Shown piece after piece: positions 4,261 through 62,397 of a stretch of DNA of 64,000 bases. Numbering within the stretch: the stretch's first letter is position 1; each line of letters starts with the position of its first letter. Origin of the DNA: Bacillus marasmi (lineage in GTDB: Bacteria > Bacillota > Bacilli > Bacillales > Cytobacillaceae); the NCBI RefSeq assembly GCF_902168435.1, contig NZ_LR656177.1:62001-126000 (forward strand), written 5' to 3'. The notes below the pieces were generated by a model. That model worked only from the letters and a program-made list of their open reading frames with translations, was not told the origin of the DNA and made no database searches. The position numbers and the translations under genes are program-made.

Positions 4261-4323
4261 ATTATATAAAGGTATGTGGATGTTGCTAGCTATTATTCAG
4301 TTAGATTCAATAGGAGGTTGTTT

Positions 4324-4878
4324 ATGAAAATTCCTCAAATTCAATTGCAACAAACTTATGCTAAAATAGGAATACGCATAACGAAGCCTGTTCAGGATAT
4401 AGAGCAGCCTCCTGCGCAAATGTCCATTAAGCAAGAGCATACCAAAATGGTCATCGACCGCAAACCAGGGACGCTAGAGATAGATCAGGAACAGGCACGA
4501 AATGAAGTGAATTTAAAAAGTCCAAGCGTCCTGTCAGATGATTTTGCCCAATTTGGTAGACAGCAGCTGTTAGAAGCGATTGATGCCATCGTTCAAAGGG
4601 GAAATAGGATGGCGGCCATAAAAAATAAAGCAGATGCCATTGTTGCCATGGCAACAGAACAAACACAGAAGCCACCACCGGACTTTAATATTGGTTTTAT
4701 TCCGAGCTACGGATCAGTCAAGTTTGACTATACTCCAACAGAGCTGCAAATTGATTGGCAAATCGGAGGTACCCAGATTGAAATCTTACCGCAAAAGCCA
4801 ATCCATCACTACAAGCCCGGAAAAGCAGAGGTATTTATGAGCGAGTGGCCCGAGCTTAAAATAGATGTTTTAGGATAG
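4324..4878 (+). CDS. YviE-like DUF6470 protein
   Basis: Soluble protein of 184 aa resembling Bacillus subtilis YviE (DUF6470), a flagellar-locus protein whose molecular role is not established. It starts MKIPQIQLQQTYAKIGI, typical of the family. A charged middle is followed by a C-terminal part rich in short beta strands with repeated KPxH/KPG turns. ATG 4324 follows TAGGAGG with ideal spacing; the upstream extension to 4276 has no ribosome site. In B. subtilis yviE lies between flgL and fliW; here it precedes flgM and has its own sigma-D promoter, which places it with late filament genes. Confidence 0.75.
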   Translation: MKIPQIQLQQTYAKIGIRITKPVQDIEQPPAQMSIKQEHTKMVIDRKPGTLEIDQEQARNEVNLKSPSVLSDDFAQFGRQQLLEAIDAIVQRGNRMAAIKNKADAIVAMATEQTQKPPPDFNIGFIPSYGSVKFDYTPTELQIDWQIGGTQIEILPQKPIHHYKPGKAEVFMSEWPELKIDVLG

Positions 4879-4902
4879 TTTCAATTTTTCCTCAAAAAAT
4901 AC

Positions 4903-4929
4903 TAAACTATCGGCTAAATCTACCGATAA
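4903..4929 (+). promoter_or_regulatory. Sigma-D promoter for flgM operon
   Basis: TAAA at 4903-4906, exactly 15 nt, then ACCGATAA at 4922-4929. This is a near-perfect sigma-D promoter 28 nt before the flgM start, in line with the known autoregulated sigma-D promoter of flgM in B. subtilis. Confidence 0.85.
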
Positions 4930-4957
4930 AATAAAAAAAGACAGGAGGCGACTTGTT

Positions 4958-5233
4958 ATGAGAATTGATAATATGAAATATGGTATGTACTCATATCAAA
5001 ATCAACAGAAAAATTCTGTGACAAGCAAAGAAATAAAAAAGTCACCTTCCTCAAGCGACGTTAGCATTTCTTCAGCAGGCAGAGAAATTTCGCAAGCAAA
5101 AATGACAGAGCAAGCCCAGCATAAAGCGCGTGTTCAAGAATTGAAGCAACTGATAGCGGAAGGTAATTACAAGGTGGACTCAAGTAAAGTTGCTGAAAAG
5201 CTTATCAGCTTTTGGAGTTCTGATTCCAAATAG
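4958..5233 (+). CDS. flgM: Anti-sigma-D factor FlgM
   Basis: Small cytoplasmic inhibitor that binds sigma-D until the hook-basal body is complete. It is 91 aa, with the family pattern of a disordered, Ser/Lys-rich N half (SSSDVSISSAGREISQA) and a helical C half (KARVQELKQLIAEGNYKVDS) that wraps the sigma factor. The length fits FlgM. The start has AGGAGG 10 nt upstream. It heads flgM-flgN-flgK-flgL and is driven by a sigma-D promoter, forming a feedback loop with sigD at 28416. Confidence 0.93.
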   Translation: MRIDNMKYGMYSYQNQQKNSVTSKEIKKSPSSSDVSISSAGREISQAKMTEQAQHKARVQELKQLIAEGNYKVDSSKVAEKLISFWSSDSK

Positions 5234-5244
5234 GAGAAGTGACT

Positions 5245-5727
5245 ATGACTTTAAAAAACCTAATTGAAATATTGGTTTCAATGGTTGATGCCCATAAAAG
5301 ATTATTAGATCTGACAAAAGAGAAACGTCAAGTTTTGATTGAGGGGGATCATCAAAACCTCCTGCAAATGACTCACCGAGAAAATTCAATTGCGATAGAG
5401 ATTGAAAAACTGGAAAACCAAAGAAAACAATTTGTCGAGGAGTACCTTAAAACGAATGGTTATCGGGGTACTTCTTTTACGCTTGAGGAAATCATTAAAC
5501 TACTAAATGATGCCCACATTGAAGCCACTATGACGAAAATCGCCAAGCAACTTCGTACGTTAGTTCAGGAAATTTCCACTATAAATAAAGGAAACCAACA
5601 GCTAATCGAAACAACATTAGCTTATCTTCAATACTCAATGAATATGTTTATCCCGAAGGATACTCCTGTGGGGTATGGACCGAAATCAAAAAATAATCAA
5701 GCAAGCCTATTGGATGCTAAAGTTTAA
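5245..5727 (+). CDS. flgN: FlgN export chaperone for hook-filament junction proteins
   Basis: Helical chaperone of 160 aa that binds FlgK and FlgL before export. The sequence is almost entirely amphipathic helix, with a FlgN-like N terminus (LKNLIEILVSMVDAHKRLLDLT) and a coiled coil through the middle. ATG 5245 lies 8 nt after TAGGAG; the GTG six bases upstream is too close to the ribosome site. It sits 11 bp after flgM and 30 bp before flgK, the standard order. Sequence conservation in this family is low, so position is part of the evidence. Confidence 0.87.
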   Translation: MTLKNLIEILVSMVDAHKRLLDLTKEKRQVLIEGDHQNLLQMTHRENSIAIEIEKLENQRKQFVEEYLKTNGYRGTSFTLEEIIKLLNDAHIEATMTKIAKQLRTLVQEISTINKGNQQLIETTLAYLQYSMNMFIPKDTPVGYGPKSKNNQASLLDAKV

Positions 5728-5757
5728 TGAAAAGGTTTTTGAAACGGAGGGAATGAT

Positions 5758-7215
5758 ATGGCTTCAAGCTTTCATGGTCTTGAGGTAGGGAAACGAGCAC
5801 TATTCGCTCAGCAAACAGCGCTCTCAACGACAGGACATAATATTTCTAATGCAAACTCAGCTGGATACACAAGGCAAAGAGCGGAAATGCGAGCAAGCAG
5901 TGCAATGAGCGTTTCTGCAGGAATCTATTCCTTTCAATTAGGTACAGGGGTTGAAATAAGCAAGCTTGAACGGATGCGCGAGGATTATTTAGATGTTCAA
6001 ATCCGTTCTGAAAATAAAAATTTAGGATATTGGGAAGCCAAGAGCGACTCCCTTTCTAAGATAGAAGAAATATTAAACGAGCCATCAGATGAGGGTTTAG
6101 CCTATATCATGAATGAATTTTGGAAGGGCTGGCAGGAGTTGGCGAAAGACCCTGACAGTGCTGCTGCTCGTGCGGTTGTGCGGCAAAGAGGTGTTGCGGT
6201 AACGGAATCATTTAAGTCCATCATGGACTCACTTGACCAAATGCAAACCGACCTCAAGCATGTCGTCGATACGAAAAAAGGCGAGGTTAACTCGATCGCT
6301 ACACAAATTGCCAATTTAAATGATCAAATTGGACGACTTGTCGCAAACAATTATGACCCGAATGATTTATATGATCAGCGTGATTTACTAGTCGACCAAC
6401 TTTCAAAGATCGTTGATGTGAAGGTGACCAACTCTACCCACGGAAAGATTGATATTGCGGTTGGTGGAGGAATGCTTGTCGAAGGAAACAATGCCAATAA
6501 ACTAGAGTTTAACTATGATTCTACAACAGGCTTAATTGATCCAGAAAGCATCACAATCGCTGATGAAAAAATCAAGCTTGTTTCCGGCGAGCTTCTAGGT
6601 CGGTTCGAATCATACGGCTTTGTTGGTGGAGGTTCTGAATCTACCATTCCTTACATTAAAGGGAAAATGAATGATTTTGCGATGACGGTTGTAAAAGCCG
6701 TTAATGAAGCGCATCGCAATGGTGAAAGCTTAGACAATATAAAAAATGGAAGTACAGATAAGTTTGATTTTTTCACTGGTACTTCGGCTCAAGATTTAGC
6801 AGTGAACGATAAGATAATGGATTCACTTGACTTTATCTCAGCTGCACATAAGGATCCGAAAACCGGTATCGCATCAAGCGGAAATGGTGACAATGCGAAA
6901 GTGATTGCCGATATTTTATTAACAAAGAATCTCAGTTTTTCAGATTCAACCTCAACCGTGAACGATTTTTATCGAAATATTATTGGACAGCTTGGAATTG
7001 ATTCACAGGAAGCAGCGCGGATGCGTGCTAATTCCCAAGGAATCGTTGAACAGGTTGAAAATCGCCGTCAATCGATTTCTGGCGTTTCTTTAGACGAAGA
7101 GATGACGAATATGATTAAGTTTCAACAAGCATACAATGCTGCTGCCCGAGTTGTCTCCGTGATGGATGAGTGCTTAGATAAAGTCATTAATGGAATGGGC
7201 AGAGTAGGATTGTAA
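5758..7215 (+). CDS. flgK: Flagellar hook-associated protein 1 FlgK
   Basis: Forms the first hook-filament junction ring. It is 485 aa. The rod/hook N-terminal signature is at about residues 5-40 (GLEVGKRALFAQQTALSTTG then HNISNANSAGYTRQR), the central domain is variable, and the C-terminal helix contains SLDEEMTNMIKFQQAYNAAARVV, typical of FlgK. The start has ACGGAGGG upstream. It is exported by the flagellar type III apparatus with the help of FlgN. Co-transcribed with flgM, flgN and flgL. Confidence 0.97.
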   Translation: MASSFHGLEVGKRALFAQQTALSTTGHNISNANSAGYTRQRAEMRASSAMSVSAGIYSFQLGTGVEISKLERMREDYLDVQIRSENKNLGYWEAKSDSLSKIEEILNEPSDEGLAYIMNEFWKGWQELAKDPDSAAARAVVRQRGVAVTESFKSIMDSLDQMQTDLKHVVDTKKGEVNSIATQIANLNDQIGRLVANNYDPNDLYDQRDLLVDQLSKIVDVKVTNSTHGKIDIAVGGGMLVEGNNANKLEFNYDSTTGLIDPESITIADEKIKLVSGELLGRFESYGFVGGGSESTIPYIKGKMNDFAMTVVKAVNEAHRNGESLDNIKNGSTDKFDFFTGTSAQDLAVNDKIMDSLDFISAAHKDPKTGIASSGNGDNAKVIADILLTKNLSFSDSTSTVNDFYRNIIGQLGIDSQEAARMRANSQGIVEQVENRRQSISGVSLDEEMTNMIKFQQAYNAAARVVSVMDECLDKVINGMGRVGL

Positions 7216-8938: not shown

Positions 8939-8969
8939 GCTTTGATATAAAAATAATAGTTTCGTCTAA

Positions 8970-9065
8970 GTTGATTGGAGTGGAAGGCACGAAAACTCCT
9001 GCGGGAGCAAAGGGCATAGGGAGACCCCGTAGGCGCAAAGCGAAGTGCCTGGAGCGGAAATCAAC
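8970..9065 (+). repeat. Dispersed palindrome-ended repeat A, copy 1 (internally shortened)
   Basis: Begins GTTGATTGGAG and ends GCGGAAATCAAC, so the ends are inverted repeats. The inside has CTCCTGCGGGAG and GGGCATAGGGAGACCCC blocks shared with other copies, but the GCCGAGGAGGCTC arm is missing. Confidence 0.85.
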
Positions 9066-9093
9066 AGACAAGTTTAGAGTGGCAAAAATTATT

Positions 9094-9148
9094 AAACAAG
9101 CCAATCCCATCAAACCATGTATTTGATGAGAGATTTGCTTGTTTTTAT
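9094..9148 (+). terminator. Terminator after pilZ gene
   Basis: AAACAAG pairs with CTTGTTT and ATCAAA with TTTGAT in one long interrupted hairpin, followed by TTTTTATTTTG. Confidence 0.65.
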
Positions 9149-10376: not shown

Positions 10377-10411
10377 GGGGTGGCTGTTGTATTAGTGATA
10401 GTGCAAACTTA

Positions 10412-10540
10412 GTTGATTGGAGAGAAAGGCACGTAGACTCCTACGGGAGTAAAGGGCATAGGGAGACCCCGCAGGCGCAAAGGGCTGAGGAGGCTCCCTG
10501 CACCGCCCGTGGACCGCTTGTGCCTGTAGCGGAAATCAAC
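10412..10540 (+). repeat. Dispersed repeat A, copy 2 (full length)
   Basis: GTTGATTGGAG ... GCGGAAATCAAC, about 129 bp, with CTCCTACGGGAG, GGGCATAGGGAGACCCC and GAGGAGGCTCCC arms. It ends 20 bp before the fliS promoter. Confidence 0.9.
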
Positions 10541-10559
10541 ATTTGCCCCAAATTACTCC

Positions 10560-21648: not shown

Positions 21649-21681
21649 TATTCGTAAATAAACGAATTGATTTTACGCAGT

Positions 21682-21813
21682 GTTGATTGGAGCGGAGGGC
21701 ACGAAGACTCCTGCGGGAGCAGTGGGACAGGTGAGACCCCACAGGCGCTAAAGCGCCGAGGAGGCTCACCGCCCACCCCTAAGGTCCGCGAAGTGCCCGG
21801 AGCGGAAATCAAC
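21682..21813 (+). repeat. Dispersed repeat A, copy 4, inside the fli operon
   Basis: GTTGATTGGAG ... GCGGAAATCAAC, about 132 bp, with CTCCTGCGGGAG and GAGGAGGCTCACC arms. It lies between fliP and fliQ on the transcribed strand, with no terminator T-run. Confidence 0.9.
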
Positions 21814-31990: not shown

Positions 31991-31991
31991 T

Positions 31992-32160
31992 ATTGGTGAC
32001 ATTTTTGGCTTGAAACCAGTTCAAATTGTCACCAATCAAGGCTATTGGTAACACTTTCGGCGTGAAACCAGTTCAAATTGTCACCAATCGGGTCTATTGG
32101 TAACACCTTCGGCTTGAAACCAGTTCAAATTGTCACCAATCAACTTCATTGGTAACTTCT
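31992..32160 (+). repeat. Tandem 52-bp hairpin repeat, three units plus remnant
   Basis: ATTGGT recurs at 31992, 32044, 32096 and 32148, an exact 52-bp period. Each unit runs from ATTGGTGAC or ATTGGTAAC to GTCACCAAT with GAAACCAGTTCAAATT inside, so each can fold into a hairpin. A decayed fourth unit continues to about 32205 (ATGTAACCAAT, TTACCAATCC). The rest of 32206-32364 is AT-rich and probably carries the fliK promoter. Confidence 0.9.
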
Positions 32161-40120: not shown

Positions 40121-40145
40121 TCATTACAATATGAAGGGAGGGTAC

Positions 40146-40560
40146 TTATATTCGTTATAAGTGCCCTATTTTCATTGCTAGGAGAAAAAGAGGTCTGTTA
40201 AAGGCGATATAAGTTACCTATTTTCAGTTTCGTTCGAAAAGGAGGTCACTTAAACTATATAAGTGCCCTAATTTCATTTTTGGGTGTAAAAGAGGTTAGT
40301 TAAAGGCGATATAAGTTACCTATTTTCAATTTCGAAAAAGAGGTCGCTTACAGGGTATAAGTGCCCTAATTTCATTTTTGGGTGTAAAAGAGGTCAGTTA
40401 AAGAAGATATAAGTTACCTATTTTCAGTGTCACGCGAAAAAGAGGTCACTTAAAGGCGATATAAGTTACCTATTTCCAGTGTCATTCAAAAAAGAGGTAA
40501 CTTAAACGCGATATAAGTGCCCCTATTTTAGAATTTCACCAAAAAATAGTTCACTTAAAA
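40146..40560 (+). repeat. Tandem array of about eight hairpin units, about 50 bp each
   Basis: Units alternate between a TATAAGTTACCTATTTTC type and a TATAAGTGCCCTAATTTC type, each ending in AAAGAGGTNACTTAAA or similar. The start of each unit is the inverse of its end (TAAGTTACCT / AGGTAACTTA), so each unit folds on itself. This explains the 490-bp gene-free gap between yvyF and motB. Confidence 0.85.
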
Positions 40561-50604: not shown

Positions 50605-50665
50605 TGATGTTTGAAGGGTGCTTAGAAGTAGTATAGGTTTTTCCAAAAAGTTCATTTTGTGAGAA

Positions 50666-50795
50666 GTTGATTGGAGCGGAAGGCACGAAGACTCCTGCGG
50701 GAGCAAAGGGCATAGGGAGACCCCGCAGGCGCAAAGCGCCGAGGAGGCTCTCTGCACCGCCCGCGGAAAGCGAAGTGCCTGGAGCGGAAATCAAC
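50666..50795 (+). repeat. Dispersed repeat A, copy 6 (full length)
   Basis: GTTGATTGGAGCGGAAGGCA ... GAGCGGAAATCAAC, 130 bp, the best-preserved copy, with CTCCTGCGGGAG, GGGCATAGGGAGACCCCGC and GCGCCGAGGAGGCTC arms. It lies between flhP and fliD. Confidence 0.92.
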
Positions 50796-50841
50796 ATTCT
50801 ATTTCGATAGCAAACAATTAATAAGGAAAGGAGTGCTACTT

Positions 50842-52970: not shown

Positions 52971-54146
52971 ATGCGTATTAACCACAATATTGCAGCACTC
53001 AACACGCACCGTCAGTTGACTAGTGCATCGACAAATCAATCTAAATCAATGGAAAAATTAGCTTCTGGTCTTCGCATTAACAAAGCTGGAGACGATGCAG
53101 CTGGACTAGCAATCTCAGAAAAAATGCGTGGCCAAATTCGAGGATTAGATCAAGCTTCGAAGAATGCACAGGATTCAATATCGTTGATAGCCACTGCGGA
53201 AGGGGCTTTAAATGAAACACACGATATTCTTCAACGTATGCGAGAATTAGCTGTACAAGGTGGGAATGACACTAATACTACTGACGATCGTGGTGAGATT
53301 CAAAAAGAGCTAAATCAGTTACTATCTGAAATTGATCGGATTTCTACTGATTCTCAATTTAATACACAACCATTGTTGGGTGGATCACTTAATATTACTT
53401 TACAAGTTGGTGCTAATAGTGGACAGGTTATTAATTTTAGTATCGGAACAATGAGCTCTTCCGCATTGACATTGGATGGAATTTCTGTTTCTACCAATGC
53501 TGCTGCAAGTACTGCTATCGCATCAATTGATGCTGCAATTAAGGCAGTTTCAGGAGAACGCTCAAAAATGGGCGCATTCCAAAATCGTTTAGAGCATACT
53601 ATTAATAATTTAAATACTTCGTCAGAGAACTTAACTGCTGCGGAATCTCGTATCCGTGACGTAGATTATGCTTTAGCTGCTTAGGCAGTGACAAGCACAG
53701 TCGTCCTAGCTGGTAACGGCTAGAGATCATTATCGGGTGAATTGCTGGAAAACCCTAAGAGCTTTTCTTACCACAACGTAGTTGGAAACGACAAGCGTGA
53801 TGGTTTGAAAAAAGGAAAGATATGGGCAATCAGCAGCCAAGCTCCTGTCTCGAAAGAGTGGAGAAGGTTCAACGACTAGGATAGACCATCTAAGGCTCTT
53901 TAGGCTATGATGATGAAATCCGTAGGTGAAACAATGTACATCAGCATTGTGAATCCGAAGTGCCCGACCCCTACTAGACTACTAGAGGGTGAAGATATAG
54001 TCTGGTCATTTGTGAAAGCAAATGTTCGCACGATGGCGAAAGAAATGATGACTCAAACAAAGAATTCTATACTTTCTCAAGCTGCTCAAGCAATGCTAGC
54101 GCAAGCAAATCAGCAGCCTCAAGGAGTATTACAATTACTTCGTTAA
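52971..54146 (+). CDS. hag: Flagellin Hag, interrupted by a group I intron
   Basis: Main filament subunit, 269 aa after splicing (exon 1 from 52971 to about 53672, exon 2 from about 54039 to 54146). Exon 1 holds the D0/D1 N-terminal region (MRINHNIAALNTHRQL, LASGLRINKAGDDAAGLAIS), a very short central domain, and most of the C-terminal D1 (NLTAAESRIRDVD). Exon 2 holds the last helix (AKEMMTQTKNSILSQAAQAM, ending VLQLLR). Unspliced, translation would stop at 53682 and give 237 aa without the export/assembly helix. Joining gives SRIRDVD, Tyr or Met, then AKEMM, a normal flagellin. AAGGAGG lies 8 nt before the ATG. Confidence 0.94.
53673..54038 (+). ncRNA. Group I self-splicing intron in hag (366 nt, no endonuclease ORF)
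   Basis: The conserved core is readable: P AATTGCTGG (53740), Q AATCAGCAGCCAAG (53828), R GTTCAACGACTAGG (53867) and S AAGATATAGTC (53992). P4 pairs TGCTG with CAGCA, P7 pairs GACTA (53874) with TAGTC (53998), and a P9 hairpin pairs CATTTG with CAAATG (54007-54024). The chosen ends give a P1 of TGCT with GGCA, a 5' exon ending in U and a final intron G. Registers 53667-54032 and 53670-54035 also keep frame and end in G; the first would restore Met instead of Tyr. The core resembles subgroup IA introns. Flagellin introns of this class are known in thermophilic bacilli. Confidence 0.9.
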
Positions 54147-54212: not shown

Positions 54213-57104
54213 ATGCAACCTTTTATATCACTTTGTATGATCGTAAAGAATGAAGAAAAGGTTTTGGAAAGATGTTTGGATTCTGTTTTTGGTATAGTTG
54301 ATGAAATAATAATTGTTGATACAGGTTCAACTGATTGCACTAAAGAAATTGCTTCAAAATATACTGATAAAATTTATGATTTTAATTGGGATGGTAGTTT
54401 CTCTAACGCGCGTAACTTTGCTCAAAAGTTTGCTAGAGGAGTTTGGATTTTAGCTCTAGATGCTGATGAATACGTTGATAGAGAAAATTTATGTACTACT
54501 ATTGATAGCTTAAAAGAGATTATTGACTCAAAGTCAAGAATTGATGCTCTTTCTGTTAAAATAATTAACTTCACTGGATCTTATGGTGAAAATATTATTC
54601 AACATCATCATTCTAGAATATATATAAATGATGGAACGGTTAAATATTATAGGGACATTCATGAGCAACTAGAAAAAACTGATGATACTTTAATAAGAGA
54701 TAAGGATTCCAGTCTTGTTGTTTATCATTCTGGTTATTTAAATTATGTGGTTAAGAATAAAGAAAAGAATAAAAGGAATACCATGTTAATTGAGTCAGAA
54801 ATGAAGAAGTCTGGAGAATCTGGTTTTGATTATTTTAATATGGGAAATGAGTTGCAGTCTTTGGGGAAGATTGAGGAAGCATTAGATGCATATAAAAAAG
54901 CATTCATAAAAAAACCTGATATAGGATATTCTTGGGTCCCTTATACAATAATTCAAATCATTAATTGTTTAATTAGGTTAACTAGATATAATGAGGCACT
55001 AGATGTGATTGCTGATGCTCAACAAATGTATTCTAATTCCCCTGATTTTCAATGTTTAAAGAGTAATATTTATATTTCACAGTTTAGATTTGAAGACGCT
55101 AAAGATGTATTAATAGAGATTATTAACAATAAGGATAATTACGATAAATGTATTTTGAGTGAAGATTATTTAGAATTAATTCCTCATAAATTTTTAGGAA
55201 TGATATATGAACGTGAAGAAAACTATGAAAAGGCTATTGAGCAATATTCTCATGCTTTATCATATAATACAACTAACTTAGAAATTATCACACGGATTCT
55301 ATTCATCTTATCGAAATATAATTGCAACAAAGAACTAAAGAACTTTATTGACAAACAGAAATGGACAGCTAGGCAAGAAATAACTAAGGCAATTATAAAA
55401 GTACTACTGAATAATAATAATATTGATTTAGCAAAAAGTTTATGTGAGTTTATTAATACCAAAAAAGATATTGTAGGAATAAATATGAAATCCGAATTGG
55501 TTAATGGTAATTTCAATGATGCTTATAATAGAATAAAAAATAGATCTATACATGATTTGAACGATTTATTAAGTCAAAATTGGATTGATTTTTTTGATTT
55601 ACTTATCCTTGCTTTAAACTGTAAGGAAACCAATTTGTTGAAGTTATTTGGTAATTTGATTACAAATAGTGACGAAAAATTATTTGTATCATTTTTACTA
55701 GAAGGGTCAATTGATACAAAGATGAATAATCCAGTTTATCTAGTTTCTCTTATGGAAAAAGCAGTACTCCTTCAACAGTTCGAACTATTCGAATCGCTTA
55801 TACCGCTAAAGAAGTTCTATGATGAATCTATTAATCTGTTAATTGGCCATATGTTATATAAGCTTCATTTTGAAGAGATTGCAATCTCTTTTTATCAAGA
55901 AATAGATAGTTTAGAAAAACTTGATGATGAAGCTATGGTGAATACTATTAAGGAGTTTATAAAGAGAGAAGAAATTAATGATGCTATTGAGTTCTCATTA
56001 CTAGCTATAAACCAAAATAGAAATGATTTTCGTATTTTTAAATATGGGATTGAATTAACTGAAAAGGTAAAAATGTATGAATTAAGAGATGAGTTTTTAA
56101 AACTAGCCTTACAAATTTATCCTGATAGCAAGTGGCTACAAGGTTTTAACGTTAAATGTAAAAAAATAGATTTTGCAAAAAAAACTAGAGTTAAGGAATA
56201 TGAATTATCATCAGATAGAATTCTACTTTCAATTATCATTCCGGCTTATAATGCAGGAAAATACATTAGGGAAACAATTGAGTCTGCGTTAACACAGACT
56301 ATAGATAAAAAAGAAGTTATTATCGTAAATGATGGGTCTTCAGATAATACATTAGCAATTATAAATAAATTTTCACATTTAGAAAATGTAAAGGTTTTTG
56401 ATAATGTAATTAATAGAGGGGCTAACTATACCTATAATTATGGTTTGTTACAAGCAAAAGGTGAATATGTAACTTTTCTTGATGCAGATGATGTATACCT
56501 TCCTGAATATTGCGAAAAGGTAATTAATGAAATTGAAATGGATCAAGCAGATTTGGGCTTTGCAAATTTATTTGTTATAGATGGTACAAGTAAATTAACA
56601 ACCACACTTTACGGTCAACCACGAGATCCAAGATTTAACCATTTCTTTGAAGGGCCCAATCATCAGTTCCCAGATGGTGAAATGTTACGAAAACTTATTT
56701 TAAAGGGTGCTCATGTGAGTCCAAGATCGGTTTATAAACGAGAATTATTCCATCTTTTTGGTCTTGAAGATTATCGTTTGAGAATTGCACACGATTGGTT
56801 GAGACATATTAGATTTATCCTGAATGGAGCAAAATGTGTTTTTGTAGAAGAGCCACTTGGTTACTACAGAATACATCCTGAAGGAAATTCGCAGAAGAAT
56901 CCACAGGAAAATAATGTGGAAAATTTAAAGGTAATGGAGATCGTTGAGAAAGAACTTTTTCATGTTTTAAGTGAAGAAGAGCGTTTTATTATGACTATGA
57001 TTAAAAAAAATATACGGGTATCACTTTTCAGTAGTTTAGCAGACTCTAACTTACCAACATCGGAAATAATCAAATATCTAGTAAATAGGAAATTTGATAT
57101 TTAG
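54213..57104 (+). CDS. Double GT2 glycosyltransferase with TPR repeats (putative flagellin glycosyltransferase)
   Basis: A 963-aa protein with three parts. Residues 1-100 are a GT-A family 2 domain (ISLCMIVKNEEKVLERCLDS, IVDTGS, LDADEY). Residues about 205-380 carry TPR-like helices (YFNMGNELQSLGKIEEALDA; YEREENYEKAIEQYSHAL). Residues about 669-900 are a second GT2 domain (LSIIIPAYNAGKYIRETIES, VNDGSSDNT, FLDADDVYLPEY). The TPR may bind the protein acceptor and each GT domain could add one sugar. It is directly downstream of hag and between two flagellins, the usual place for flagellin glycosylation genes, but the acceptor is inferred. Base content is much more AT-rich than in the export genes, suggesting transfer. 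Confidence 0.85.
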   Translation: MQPFISLCMIVKNEEKVLERCLDSVFGIVDEIIIVDTGSTDCTKEIASKYTDKIYDFNWDGSFSNARNFAQKFARGVWILALDADEYVDRENLCTTIDSLKEIIDSKSRIDALSVKIINFTGSYGENIIQHHHSRIYINDGTVKYYRDIHEQLEKTDDTLIRDKDSSLVVYHSGYLNYVVKNKEKNKRNTMLIESEMKKSGESGFDYFNMGNELQSLGKIEEALDAYKKAFIKKPDIGYSWVPYTIIQIINCLIRLTRYNEALDVIADAQQMYSNSPDFQCLKSNIYISQFRFEDAKDVLIEIINNKDNYDKCILSEDYLELIPHKFLGMIYEREENYEKAIEQYSHALSYNTTNLEIITRILFILSKYNCNKELKNFIDKQKWTARQEITKAIIKVLLNNNNIDLAKSLCEFINTKKDIVGINMKSELVNGNFNDAYNRIKNRSIHDLNDLLSQNWIDFFDLLILALNCKETNLLKLFGNLITNSDEKLFVSFLLEGSIDTKMNNPVYLVSLMEKAVLLQQFELFESLIPLKKFYDESINLLIGHMLYKLHFEEIAISFYQEIDSLEKLDDEAMVNTIKEFIKREEINDAIEFSLLAINQNRNDFRIFKYGIELTEKVKMYELRDEFLKLALQIYPDSKWLQGFNVKCKKIDFAKKTRVKEYELSSDRILLSIIIPAYNAGKYIRETIESALTQTIDKKEVIIVNDGSSDNTLAIINKFSHLENVKVFDNVINRGANYTYNYGLLQAKGEYVTFLDADDVYLPEYCEKVINEIEMDQADLGFANLFVIDGTSKLTTTLYGQPRDPRFNHFFEGPNHQFPDGEMLRKLILKGAHVSPRSVYKRELFHLFGLEDYRLRIAHDWLRHIRFILNGAKCVFVEEPLGYYRIHPEGNSQKNPQENNVENLKVMEIVEKELFHVLSEEERFIMTMIKKNIRVSLFSSLADSNLPTSEIIKYLVNRKFDI

Positions 57105-57130
57105 ATTTTAATAAAGGATTTGATAAGCAG

Positions 57131-57811
57131 ATGGACTACAATGAATTATTAAACATAATTTATAAAGCTAATCATCTATTTCATGAAAATGATGCTAGAA
57201 ATATAGAACGTGAATTACAAAGAAAAGCATTAAAAGAAACAGCAAGTTTTGTTGAAGAGAGAATGAATAATGTGAGATCTTTTGCTACTAAAGAAGAGCT
57301 ATTAGAATATGCAATTGATTTGGTGGTCCTAAAAGGCTTATTTATTGAATTTGGGGTGTATAAAGGTGAAACGATTAATTTTATTTCATCTAAAGTAGAA
57401 GAGACCGTTTATGGATTTGACTCATTTGAGGGTTTACCAGAAGATTGGAGAGATGGTTTTCCTAAAGGAGTATTTCAGTTGGGAACACTTCCAAGTGTAA
57501 ATTATAACGTTGAATTAATTAATGGATGGTTTGAGGAATCTTTACCAAAGTTTACTGAAAATCATAAAAACAATTGTGCATTTATCCACATTGATTGTGA
57601 TTTGTATACATCAACTAAAACAATATTTAAATTTCTAAAAGGCAAAATACAATCTGGGACAGTAATTGTATTTGATGAGTACTTTAATTATCCAAATTGG
57701 AAAAATGGAGAATATAAGGCTTTTGAAGAGTTTATTGCTGAGAGCAAAAGTAAATTTGAATATATAGGGTATAATCGTTACCATGAGCAAGTAGGAGTAA
57801 GAATACTATAA
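57131..57811 (+). CDS. TylF-type SAM-dependent O-methyltransferase
   Basis: A 226-aa methyltransferase like macrocin O-methyltransferase TylF, which methylates sugar hydroxyls. SAM-site strand FIEFGVYKGETINFI (about 76-90), YGFDSFEGLPEDWRDGF, and the acidic metal-site motif FIHIDCDLYTST with FDEYFNYPNW are present. The start has only a weak ribosome site. It lies between a glycosyltransferase and a sugar mutase, so it probably methylates the glycan added to flagellin. AT-rich like its neighbours. Confidence 0.85.
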   Translation: MDYNELLNIIYKANHLFHENDARNIERELQRKALKETASFVEERMNNVRSFATKEELLEYAIDLVVLKGLFIEFGVYKGETINFISSKVEETVYGFDSFEGLPEDWRDGFPKGVFQLGTLPSVNYNVELINGWFEESLPKFTENHKNNCAFIHIDCDLYTSTKTIFKFLKGKIQSGTVIVFDEYFNYPNWKNGEYKAFEEFIAESKSKFEYIGYNRYHEQVGVRIL

Positions 57812-57840
57812 ATTGAAATTAAAATTATAGGAGCATTATA

Positions 57841-58941
57841 ATGTATGACTATTTAATAGTTGGCGCTGGTTTATTTGGTGCTGTGTTTGCTTATGAGGCT
57901 ACACAAAGAGGAAAGACTTGTTTAGTAATTGATAAAAGGGATCATATTGGTGGTAATTTATATACTGAGAAAATAGAAGATATTAATGTTCATAAGTATG
58001 GAGCTCATATTTTTCATACTAATAATAAAAAGGTTTGGGATTATATCAATCAATTTGGCGAGTTTAACAGATATACTAATGCACCTATAGCAAATTTTAA
58101 TGGAGAAATATACAATCTACCATTTAATATGAATACTTTTAATAAATTATGGGGTGTTTCAACACCAAATGAAGCAAGGAAGGTTATTGAAGAACAAAGA
58201 AAAAGGGCTGGGGTTATTACTCCTAAAAATCTTGAAGAACAAGCAATTTCTTTAGTTGGAACAGATATTTATAAAAAGTTAATTAAAGGTTATACAGAAA
58301 AGCAATGGGGAAGGCCTGCTAAAGAATTACCTGCAGCTATTATCAGAAGAATTCCAGTACGCTTTACTTATGATAATAATTATTTTAATGACAAATATCA
58401 AGGAATACCAATTGGTGGATACACCGCAATTATTGAAAAGATGCTTATGAATAGTGAAAAGAGATTAAGTGTTGATTTCTTTCAAAATAGATATGAACTC
58501 TCAAAACTCGCTCATAAAATTGTTTTTACTGGGATGATTGATCAATATTACGAATTTAATTATGGAGTGCTTGAATATAGAAGTCTTAAATTTGAAACAA
58601 AGGTTTTACATGAAATCAACAATTACCAAGGAAATGCAGTAGTTAATTATACTGATAACGTAACCCCTTATACTCGAATAATAGAGCATAAACATTTTGA
58701 ATTTGGCACCCAAGAAAAGACAATTATTACAAAAGAATATCCTCTAGATTGGGAATCTGGTAAAGAGCCATATTATCCAATTAATGATGAAAAAAATAAT
58801 AATTTATATATAAAATATGAAGAGCTAGCAAAACAAGAGAAGAATGTGATTTTTGGGGGGAGATTAGGATTATATAAATATTTTGATATGCATCAAGTGA
58901 TTGTTTCTGCGCTAGAGTCTGTTAAAAAAGAATTTAGTTAG
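57841..58941 (+). CDS. glf: UDP-galactopyranose mutase
   Basis: Flavoenzyme that converts UDP-galactopyranose to UDP-galactofuranose, 366 aa, the usual length. The dinucleotide-binding start YLIVGAGLFGAVFAYEA with IDKRDHIGGNLYTE, the substrate motif KYGAHIFHTNNKKVWDYI, TEKQWGRPAKELPAAIIRRI and the C-terminal FGGRLGLYKYFDMHQVI are all intact. In this setting it suggests galactofuranose in the flagellin glycan. It ends the AT-rich island. Confidence 0.93.
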   Translation: MYDYLIVGAGLFGAVFAYEATQRGKTCLVIDKRDHIGGNLYTEKIEDINVHKYGAHIFHTNNKKVWDYINQFGEFNRYTNAPIANFNGEIYNLPFNMNTFNKLWGVSTPNEARKVIEEQRKRAGVITPKNLEEQAISLVGTDIYKKLIKGYTEKQWGRPAKELPAAIIRRIPVRFTYDNNYFNDKYQGIPIGGYTAIIEKMLMNSEKRLSVDFFQNRYELSKLAHKIVFTGMIDQYYEFNYGVLEYRSLKFETKVLHEINNYQGNAVVNYTDNVTPYTRIIEHKHFEFGTQEKTIITKEYPLDWESGKEPYYPINDEKNNNLYIKYEELAKQEKNVIFGGRLGLYKYFDMHQVIVSALESVKKEFS

Positions 58942-59461: not shown

Positions 59462-59767
59462 TCAATTGTTATAACACACCTGCTCAAGGAATGTTATAAA
59501 CTGGTCGGTCTGAGATTGCACTTGGTAGCACTCGGTGTAGCCCTTTTCAGTTCTACTATCCATTACTTTCTTATAAAAGGGACGTGCTAGTGGAAGAGTA
59601 GAGGTTAATTTTTCAAAACAGAAAAAACACCATTCACTATCATTTTTAGAATGAATAAATTGAAATCGAGGTTTTCTTCCTCTTTGTTTTGTAATGCAGC
59701 CATCCCCTAACAACTTTCCGGTAATCATATGTTTAATTTCTTCAGGTATAGAACTTAAAGAAAACAT
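59462..59767 (-). CDS. LAGLIDADG homing endonuclease-like protein, short (probably truncated)
   Basis: A 101-aa protein. The motif ITGKLLGDGCI, followed by RKPRFQFIHSKNDSEWCFFC, is the first LAGLIDADG helix and following strand of the LAGLIDADG_2 type; the Asp of GDG would bind the metal. The second LAGLIDADG-type helix is absent, and the 120 bp beyond the stop do not encode it in any frame, so this is probably a remnant or a half-enzyme acting as a homodimer. AGGTGA precedes the ATG and a -10 TATAAT lies upstream, so expression signals remain. It is 5.4 kb from an endonuclease-less intron in hag and next to a second flagellin. Confidence 0.7.
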   Translation of the reverse strand: MFSLSSIPEEIKHMITGKLLGDGCITKQRGRKPRFQFIHSKNDSEWCFFCFEKLTSTLPLARPFYKKVMDSRTEKGYTECYQVQSQTDQFITFLEQVCYNN

Positions 59768-59884: not shown

Positions 59885-59911
59885 TAAATTTTTCCTAGAT
59901 ATTACCGATAC
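59885..59911 (+). promoter_or_regulatory. Sigma-D promoter for VWA flagellin
   Basis: TAAA at 59885-59888, 15 nt, then ACCGATAC at 59904-59911. It lies 41 nt before the TTG start, so this flagellin should be made with the late class of genes. Confidence 0.8.
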
Positions 59912-59951
59912 CAAAATATAGGTAAAAAGTCTTTTTATTGAAGGTGATATC

Positions 59952-61424
59952 TTGATCATTAATCATAATTTAGCAGCATTAAATACAATAAATAAATTAA
60001 CAAAAAACAACAAAAGCAATACAAATGCAATCGAAAAGTTAGCATCTGGCTTACGTATAAATAAAGCTGCTGATGACGCAGCAGGTTTGGCTATTTCGGA
60101 AAAAATGAGAGCACAAATCCGAGGAACTGAACAAGCGAATAAAAACATTCAGGATGGCATATCTCTTATTCAGAGTGCAGACGCAGCTCTTGGACAAATT
60201 CAAAATCCCAATTTACAAAGAATAAGGGAATTAGCAATACAAGCAGCTAATGATACACTTACCGCAGAAGATAGGGGAGCAATACAAACAGAAATTGACC
60301 AAATAAAATTAGGAATAGATGATATTGCAAATAATACTGAATTTAATAGTATTAAAATCCTTAGACCACCAATTATTGAAACTCCACCAGTTACTGTTCC
60401 AGGTAAATCAGATATTATTTTTATTATTGATAATACGGGGAGCATGGGATCACCAATCGCAAATGTAAAAAATAACATTGAAAGCTTTGTTAATAAAATG
60501 AAAGATGAGGGAGTAGATGTTAGGTTAGGTTTAGTTACATATGGCGATATATCACCATCTGAAAATGGTGAGTGGGTTGAGAAAAAAGACTTTGTTACGG
60601 ACGTAGAAGTTTTCAAAACATATATTGGAAGTGTTCCAGCAATTGGCGGAGGCGATACGGAGGAATCTGGACTAGAAGGTATTGCTGACCCAACCAATGG
60701 TGCATTAAGCTTTTCCTTCCGGGAGGATGCGACTAAACAATTTATTTTAGTTACAGATGCACCTGTCCATGACAACGCAACTGATGGTGACGGTGGGGAT
60801 GGGCAATCGAGCTATGATATAGATGACGTTGCCAATTTGTTAAAAACAAATAATATTAAATTACATGTAGTTTCATCAACTGCTTCAGGGATTGCCACGC
60901 AATTAGATCGGCTAACCACCCCAACCGGTGGTACATATATGGATATTTATGGTGACTTTTCGTCTCAATTAAGCTCGCTAGCTTCTAGTATTATTGTTGA
61001 TTCTGGCAATAAAGAAGAATTGGAAAATATGCCACCAATCACTCTACAAGTTGGAGCAAATTCTGGTGACTCTTTTTTGATTGAGTTATTTGATGCTCGT
61101 ACAGATAAATTAAAAATAGCTACACTATCTATTAATCCAGCTGATAAAGCTCAAGAAGCAATCACATTAATAGATGAAGCAATCAAGATGATTTCTTCTC
61201 AACGAGGTAAATTGGGAGCCTATCAAAATGCATTAGAGCACATCCAGAATAATATTTCAAATTATGGTATTAATATAACCGCAGCAGAATCAGGTATTCG
61301 TGATTCAGACATGGCAAAAGAAGTAATGGCGCAAGCCAAAAATTCAATTCTATCTCAGTCTGCTCAAGCAATGCTGATACAAGCAAATCAGCAACCTCAA
61401 GCCGTTTTACAGCTTCTTCGATAA
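59952..61424 (+). CDS. Flagellin with a von Willebrand factor A domain in the variable region
   Basis: A 490-aa flagellin. Residues 1-136 are D0/D1 (INHNLAALNTINKLT, LASGLRINKAADDAAGLAIS); 361-490 are the C-terminal D1/D0 (ITLQVGANSGDS, AAESGIRDSDMAKEVMAQ, QPQAVLQLLR). Between them, after a Pro-rich linker, residues about 152-350 form a VWA domain: IIFIIDNTGSMG (D160, T162, S164), IGGGDTEESGLEGI (T236) and FILVTDAPVHD (D269), a complete metal-ion-dependent adhesion site. TTG 59952 follows AAGGTGAT. It should co-polymerise into the filament and display the VWA domain outside. No intron is present at the position that is interrupted in hag. Confidence 0.94.
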   Translation: MIINHNLAALNTINKLTKNNKSNTNAIEKLASGLRINKAADDAAGLAISEKMRAQIRGTEQANKNIQDGISLIQSADAALGQIQNPNLQRIRELAIQAANDTLTAEDRGAIQTEIDQIKLGIDDIANNTEFNSIKILRPPIIETPPVTVPGKSDIIFIIDNTGSMGSPIANVKNNIESFVNKMKDEGVDVRLGLVTYGDISPSENGEWVEKKDFVTDVEVFKTYIGSVPAIGGGDTEESGLEGIADPTNGALSFSFREDATKQFILVTDAPVHDNATDGDGGDGQSSYDIDDVANLLKTNNIKLHVVSSTASGIATQLDRLTTPTGGTYMDIYGDFSSQLSSLASSIIVDSGNKEELENMPPITLQVGANSGDSFLIELFDARTDKLKIATLSINPADKAQEAITLIDEAIKMISSQRGKLGAYQNALEHIQNNISNYGINITAAESGIRDSDMAKEVMAQAKNSILSQSAQAMLIQANQQPQAVLQLLR

Positions 61425-61474: not shown

Positions 61475-61675
61475 ATGGATATTGCAAAAATGTCGATTGC
61501 ACTAAGCCAAGGACAAGTACAACAACAAGCTTCCATGTCTGTTATGAAAATGGCAATGGGGAATGTTGAACAGCAAGGAGACGCACTTCAAAAGTTATTA
61601 GGCGTTAGTAATGTTTCAAACATTCAACGGATTGACCAACCGAATCTAGGTACAAATATTGATGTATTAATCTGA
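61475..61675 (+). CDS. YjfB-family putative motility protein
   Basis: A 66-aa protein of the YjfB family, found near flagellar genes in bacilli, with no known role. The whole sequence is typical (MDIAKMSIALSQGQVQQQAS, MSVMKMAMGNVEQQG). AAGGATGTG is upstream. It lies between the second flagellin and flaG. Confidence 0.85.
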   Translation: MDIAKMSIALSQGQVQQQASMSVMKMAMGNVEQQGDALQKLLGVSNVSNIQRIDQPNLGTNIDVLI

Positions 61676-62235: not shown

Positions 62236-62251
62236 TGTAATAATTTTTACA

Positions 62252-62384
62252 AATTGATAACGGAGCGGAAGGCACGAAGACTCCTGCGGGAGCAAAGGGC
62301 ATAGGGAGACACCGCAGGAGCGAAGCGACGAGGAGGCTTCCTGCACCGCCCGCGGAAAGCGAAGTGCCTGGAGCGGAGATTAAC
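62252..62384 (+). repeat. Dispersed repeat A, copy 7
   Basis: ATTGATAACGGAGCGGAAGG ... CCTGGAGCGGAGATTAAC, about 133 bp. The inside is well conserved but both terminal inverted repeats have drifted (TTGATAA / AGATTAAC). It lies between flaG and its terminator. Confidence 0.88.
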
Positions 62385-62397
62385 ATTATATTAAATT

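Follow-up and report, generated by a model that had tools for sequence, protein, structure and literature searches.

A flagellin with a von Willebrand factor A domain and a plausible integrin-beta-type metal site in Bacillus marasmi, and related modules in FlgK

We analysed a 64,000-nucleotide stretch of the Bacillus marasmi genome (contig NZ_LR656177.1, positions 62,001 to 126,000 of the forward strand; hereafter the window) and found that it encodes, beside an ordinary flagellin, a flagellin with a von Willebrand factor A (VWA) domain between its conserved ends (Table 1). The genome is 4.6-Mb in size, and the window lies in a contig of 148.8-kb. We lean towards the view that this protein is a minor flagellin of the filament with an outward-facing VWA domain, that the domain has a metal ion-dependent adhesion site (MIDAS) of the integrin-beta type and serves metal-dependent adhesion, and that the gene spreads on its own and carries an interchangeable module.

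The initial annotation had described flagellin ends flanking a VWA domain in one frame. This observation is confirmed: the frame, the residues and their positions agree with the description, Pfam places all three domains above their cut-offs, supporting both ends as correct, and a three-domain match in a single frame is far beyond chance. The interpretation built on it, of an adhesive filament, is partly supported, as described below. In an alignment with the ordinary flagellin of the window, the insert follows the N-terminal helical region and stops at an ITLQVGAN strand, a place at which the ordinary protein has a short stretch. Given these boundaries and the known structure of flagellin, the insert of ~200 residues appears to replace the exposed outer domains. 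The predicted structure of the domain has the Rossmann-like VWA fold, as had been expected; in the whole-protein prediction, the ends are of low confidence. For the structure matches (Foldseek) and the VIA lists, the best 50 rows were considered.

Flagellin_N matches three proteins of this genome: FlgL (7232 on), the ordinary flagellin (52971 on) and the VWA flagellin, which is probably a second filament protein of its bacterium. Ordinary flagellins are also present in all 11 genomes examined. In the six other loci mapped (G614, G584, G625, G572, G705 and G150, most of them from draft genomes; G and L handles denote genomes and loci), the gene for the VWA flagellin is far from, or on another contig than, other flagellin-type genes. 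With an ordinary flagellin at hand, a TTG start and this distance from ordinary flagellin genes, a minor subunit is more likely than the display of many copies that the initial annotation had proposed. The proposed sigma-D promoter is supported by a SigD-like site upstream of the gene; the pattern (spacer 12-17) occurs nine times in the window versus 1.03 expected, an excess that fits a flagellar cluster.

The third ligand of a MIDAS is a Thr, or a Glu in the integrin-beta type. An intact MIDAS had been read from D160, T162, S164, T236 and D269, and all five residues are present at these positions. D160, T162, S164 and D269 stand as a plausible metal site. T236 was dropped as third ligand because its position varies (T, W, M, G, Y or a gap across ten aligned VWA flagellins), whereas E238 is invariant in a 16-row alignment and pairs with the Glu of NIDTPE in a profile alignment to integrin beta-8. 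The expectation that homologues keep the MIDAS residues holds in large part: among 13 aligned flagellar VWA domains, the D-x-S/T-x-S motif and the Glu occur in 13/13 and the Asp at D269 in 9/13, and D160, S/T162, S164 and E238 are kept although the compared domains are only 25-66% identical to that of the window. Two observations count against the proposed site. The position of D269 is Asn in the other 4/13 domains, all four of the other VWA subtype (see below), and by eye a Synergistaceae protein outside the 13-row set (L051) lacks a clear Glu at the place of E238. On balance, an integrin-beta-type MIDAS (D160-x-T162-x-S164, E238, D269) is plausible from the alignments, and the domain probably binds a divalent metal. 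The integrin beta family PF00362 scores 19.0 bits on the whole protein and 22.2 bits on the domain alone against a curated cut-off of 24.8, and the domain is therefore not filed as an integrin; the homologous VWA flagellin L028 reaches 26.3 bits.

Relatives are sparse. We searched 1,864 genomes in surveys that overlap in their genomes. With the VWA domain as BLAST query, 2/101 near genomes match (the window itself and the FlgK of G089), as do 11/398 genomes of the phylum, in which three axial proteins were found (the window, flagellin L016 of G150 and FlgK L014 of G420). A profile search of the order matched 11/397 genomes. Seven of the proteins are of the flagellin type (the window, G614, G584, G625, G572, G705 and, as a broken relic, G697), G089 and G643 have the domain in FlgK, and the last two are surface proteins of other kinds. 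A wider profile recovered the same three axial proteins and seven others in the phylum (10/398), and a search in the class of G150 returned G150 itself (1/82). In the families of G643, G584 and G705, matches occur in 2/44, 1/9 and 1/24 genomes, starting genomes counted in; the single new match is a VWA flagellin of G908, from the same genus as G643, which has the VWA domain in FlgK. A class survey (14/398) matched the window and the FlgK of G089 again and added VWA flagellins in G963 and G1026; the ten remaining proteins have neither flagellin nor FlgK parts. The total is ten VWA flagellins from nine families, one relic and three FlgK. Nine of the ten flagellins (window included) are full-length open frames, the frame of G1026 lacks the first residues, and the six that were measured are 40-58% identical to the window protein. 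Pfam confirmed the domain order in five further VWA flagellins (L016, L022, L027, L028 and L049). The relic (L125 7674-8381) matches the intact gene in the congener G625 with 89% identity across 219 residues.

A scan of named-genome contigs yielded at least 590 stretches and at least 60 VWA loci. In a profile screen of the 60 loci listed, the flagellin N part was found in two (L049, L051), the C part in one (L049) and the FlgK profile in 0/60 among the matches listed. L049 is the VWA flagellin of Bacillus sp. RAR_GA_16, on the same contig as G625. With L051, VWA flagellins extend beyond the phylum. Its layout differs, with a long stretch between flagellin N and VWA and more sequence before the C part; D-V-S-G-S and VTD are present, and the protein is perhaps the product of an independent insertion. 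The profile screen found neither flagellin nor FlgK in 19 longest frames of VWA matches from the genome surveys, and the eight g73 loci of the class survey among these frames each have an LPxTG motif. Matches to the VWA domain occur in 17/72,556 plasmid records, the best being a large VWA protein of Paenibacillus urinalis, and in 0/50,697 phage records at 1e-8.

In FlgK, the Pfam order is FlgK_D1, VWA, Flg_bbr_C (L005) or FlgK_D1, VWA_4, Flg_bbr_C (L014). The VWA-bearing FlgK gene is directly before flgL in 3/3 genomes, and thus occupies the usual flgK position. In a tree built from the flagellin ends, the ten VWA flagellins form one group against 17 ordinary flagellins from 11 genomes (support 95/98); a first tree with seven VWA flagellins gave 42/47 for all and 98/97 for five of them. 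The ordinary flagellins represent seven of the ten hosts, those of G908, G963 and G1026 being left out. For the seven hosts represented, the VWA flagellins thus do not appear to be derived from the flagellin of their own host, an origin that neither ends tree supports.

The VWA domains tell a different history from the ends. Those of the window, G614, G572, G705, G908 and G1026 group with one long-branched Paenibacillus surface protein (83/92), and those of G584, G625, G150 and G963 join the three FlgK domains (100/100). A single clade of all flagellin VWA domains is rejected by the approximately unbiased test (p-AU 4.4e-4; 2.7e-7 in an earlier tree with the relic), and so is the grouping of five rows from the first ends tree when imposed on the VWA domains (p-AU 4e-136). 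One clade of flagellin and FlgK VWA domains together is not rejected (p-AU 0.126). A split of the flagellin ends into the same two groups is rejected at the borderline only (p-AU 0.052 and 0.068), and we thus infer a swap of modules without regarding it as proven. The earlier VWA tree contained 13 surface proteins and the G697 relic and the later one eight; the relic is in neither the later VWA tree nor the later ends tree, and L106 and L108 (flagellin-like), G150 C48:5421, the FlgL rows and L051 were left out of the trees. The VWA flagellins thus seem to carry two interchangeable VWA subtypes on one flagellin lineage, one subtype occurring also in FlgK. The simplest reading of these sequences is that FlgK and a VWA flagellin exchanged the module on at least one occasion, or that both received it from a common source.

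Across seven loci and the window's own end, no neighbour is common to different genera save weak general-family matches (23-31% identity), and partner genes for the VWA flagellin are accordingly not supported. The congeners G625 and G697 both have cell-surface repeat proteins there, as well as a permease gene that agrees at 98.6% over 276 residues. A common SigD promoter was also rejected: the strict pattern occurs in 1/7 loci (the window), and the G614 locus has only a -10-like CCGATAT. The gene probably spreads as a stand-alone unit, here mostly among Bacillota.

The initial annotation knew of no described VWA flagellin. For the architecture this is wrong, because Table 1 of Eckhard et al. 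2017 (PMC5595980) lists vWFA in 21/26,587 flagellins, as the eighth most frequent domain of the variable region. Those proteins, like that of the window, have the VWA domain in the hypervariable region; the available portions of the paper give a table count without species, alignment, metal site or function. The architecture itself had thus been counted already; within the literature searched, there is no description of the integrin-beta-type site, of a single lineage of ends or of a module common with FlgK. Judged from listings, there is no other study of a VWA flagellin among the papers listed on flagellin with von Willebrand, VWA or MIDAS. A VWA FlgK is described neither in the available portions of PMC12826043 and PMC12008871 nor, as far as listed, in papers on hook-associated proteins. 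The words Willebrand, VWA and vWFA are absent from PMC7018530 (flagellin diversity), PMC8306008 (a filament review) and PMC7643111 (flagellinolysin).

Several known systems resemble parts of this one. Flagellinolysins (NF033876) also have a functional domain in the flagellin variable region and a scattered distribution, and are thought to have spread horizontally (PMC5595980, available portions). Their insert is a zinc protease, whereas here it is a VWA domain; the window protein scores 55.8 bits on the flagellinolysin profile against a cut-off of 205, and contains no HE pair anywhere, hence no HExxH motif. Integrin beta I-like domains are 15-21% identical to the bacterial domain among the matches listed, and no integrin partner was seen. 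VWA adhesins such as Mfa5 are proteins of a pilus tip, in contrast to the flagellar filament subunit considered here. On the side of function, the nearest hint comes from CmoA of Paenibacillus sp. NAIST15-1, an extracellular vWFA protein, possibly of the flagellar regulon, that is needed for motility on hard agar (PMC5072692, available portions). Unlike the window protein, it is a secreted protein of 1,064-aa with IPT/TIG repeats and is not a flagellin.

We predict that the VWA flagellin is exported through the flagellar type III apparatus and assembled into the filament beside the ordinary flagellin, where the VWA domain, in place of the variable outer part, would point outward. There, D160-x-T162-x-S164, E238 and D269 would bind an acidic group of a ligand via a divalent metal, and in this way the flagella could attach to surfaces, to matrix or to other cells. 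Of this model, the order of domains, the fold, the conservation of metal residues, the common descent of the ends and the subtype present also in FlgK are computed results; export, assembly, metal binding, ligand and adhesion are predictions. That flagella can be sticky is known; with an integrin-beta-like metal site on one of the filament subunits, adhesion would have a concrete mechanism that can be tested by changing individual residues. FlgK is present in few copies at the hook-filament junction, and the same VWA subtype in this protein would place the module there. The close relatives in FlgK suggest that some flagella carry an exchangeable gripping module, and that the outer surface of the flagellum serves as a platform on which exchangeable parts are displayed. 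More tentatively, and with somewhat less confidence than doubt, we propose that some Bacillota possess an adhesion cassette of integrin-like character, inserted either along the filament (in VWA flagellin) or at the junction (in FlgK), which has been swapped between carriers and subtypes. If so, the propeller would be a metal-dependent gripping organelle, with the location of the grip set by the choice of carrier protein.

The VWA domain might instead be a structural outer domain that stiffens or bundles filaments by domain-domain contacts, with no outside ligand. VWA domains can serve protein-protein contacts, and TFIIH chains are also among the structure matches listed. In other flagellins, outer domains form dimers and influence movement through viscous media (PMC8931119, available portions). 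However, self-pairing along the filament would be poor for a minor subunit, the same module occurs in a junction protein of few copies, and D160, S/T162, S164 and E238 are retained at low domain identity. We consider this explanation unlikely.

The patchy distribution in the three families surveyed, the relic in G697, the shortened frame of G1026, the split copy in L051 and the lack of a neighbour common to different genera would all suit a mobile gene that is cryptic or in decay and hardly affects the cell. Set against this are the nine full-length copies among ten, the retention of most metal residues in proteins 40-58% identical, and the SigD-like promoter of the window copy, and we regard decay as distinctly unlikely. 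Flagellin outer regions vary in general under phage and immune pressure, and two interchangeable subtypes on one flagellin lineage could also reflect a target or decoy surface that diversifies the filament as a defence against flagellum-using phages or immune recognition, with binding secondary. Mere variation would not need conserved metal residues, however, and the phage records hold no match to the window domain at the threshold used, so that this seems highly improbable. We thus retain the minor, adhesive VWA flagellin as the preferred interpretation.

Table 1. Coordinates of the VWA flagellin, its parts and neighbouring features in the window, with locus L051 in its own coordinates
Feature	Position	Strand	Evidence or remark
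VWA flagellin	59952..61424	+	open frame, 490 aa/codons, TTG start
Likely Shine-Dalgarno stretch gaaggtgat ahead of the TTG start	59940..59948	+	read in sequence; graded fair
SigD-like promoter TAAA-N16-CCGATA, upstream of VWA flagellin	59885..59910	+	pattern search
Flagellin_N PF00669, residues 3-137	59958..60362	+	Pfam E 1.5e-38; 132.5 bits, cut-off 26.6
VWA PF00092, residues 154-337	60411..60962	+	Pfam E 1.4e-12; 48.6 bits, cut-off 23.8
MIDAS motif 1, D160-N-T162-G-S164	60429..60443	+	sequence and alignment
E238, probable third MIDAS ligand, integrin-beta-type Glu	60663..60665	+	alignment conservation
D269, MIDAS Asp	60756..60758	+	sequence and alignment
Flagellin_C PF00700, residues 404-489	61161..61418	+	Pfam E 1.5e-22; 80.1 bits, cut-off 23
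YjfB-type putative motility protein, directly downstream of VWA flagellin	61475..61672	+	PF14070 6.5e-14
LAGLIDADG_2 homing endonuclease fragment, upstream of VWA flagellin	59462-59767	-	PF03161 1.4e-7, half of profile
Ordinary flagellin, first exon (frame runs into intron)	52971..53684	+	
Group I intron in ordinary flagellin gene (Rfam match span)	53680..54024	+	RF00028 90.4 bits
Ordinary flagellin 3' exon, start inferred	54033..54146	+	
L051, Synergistaceae VWA flagellin	4320-6122 (N part and VWA) and 5897-6685 (C part)		two overlapping frames

The ordinary flagellin gene is interrupted near its 3' end by a group I intron, apparently between the codons for IRDVD and MAKEMM. In G614, the ordinary flagellin is interrupted by an intron at the corresponding position, and a second intron match follows just downstream; the VWA flagellin has no intron at this site. 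Flagellin introns are known from thermophilic Bacillus (PMC3984707, available portions). At the DNA level, the 3' exon of the ordinary flagellin and the C-terminal codons of the VWA flagellin (61311-61424) share 78% identity, possibly the result of local gene conversion. The LAGLIDADG_2 fragment, which sits between a UDP-galactopyranose mutase gene and the VWA flagellin, may be what is left of a mobile intron, or of the event by which the VWA flagellin gene arrived.

We identified a scattered repeat of about 85-131 bases in the flagellar cluster (8955-9107, 10397-10549, 21667-21751, 50651-50803 and 62240-62392), along with tandem-like repeats at 31991-32156 (spacing 52 bases) and 40138-40559 (spacing 52-102). 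The interval between the two flagellins (54213-58941), with a glycosyltransferase-like gene and genes for a TylF-like methyltransferase and UDP-galactopyranose mutase, may be an island for flagellin glycosylation.
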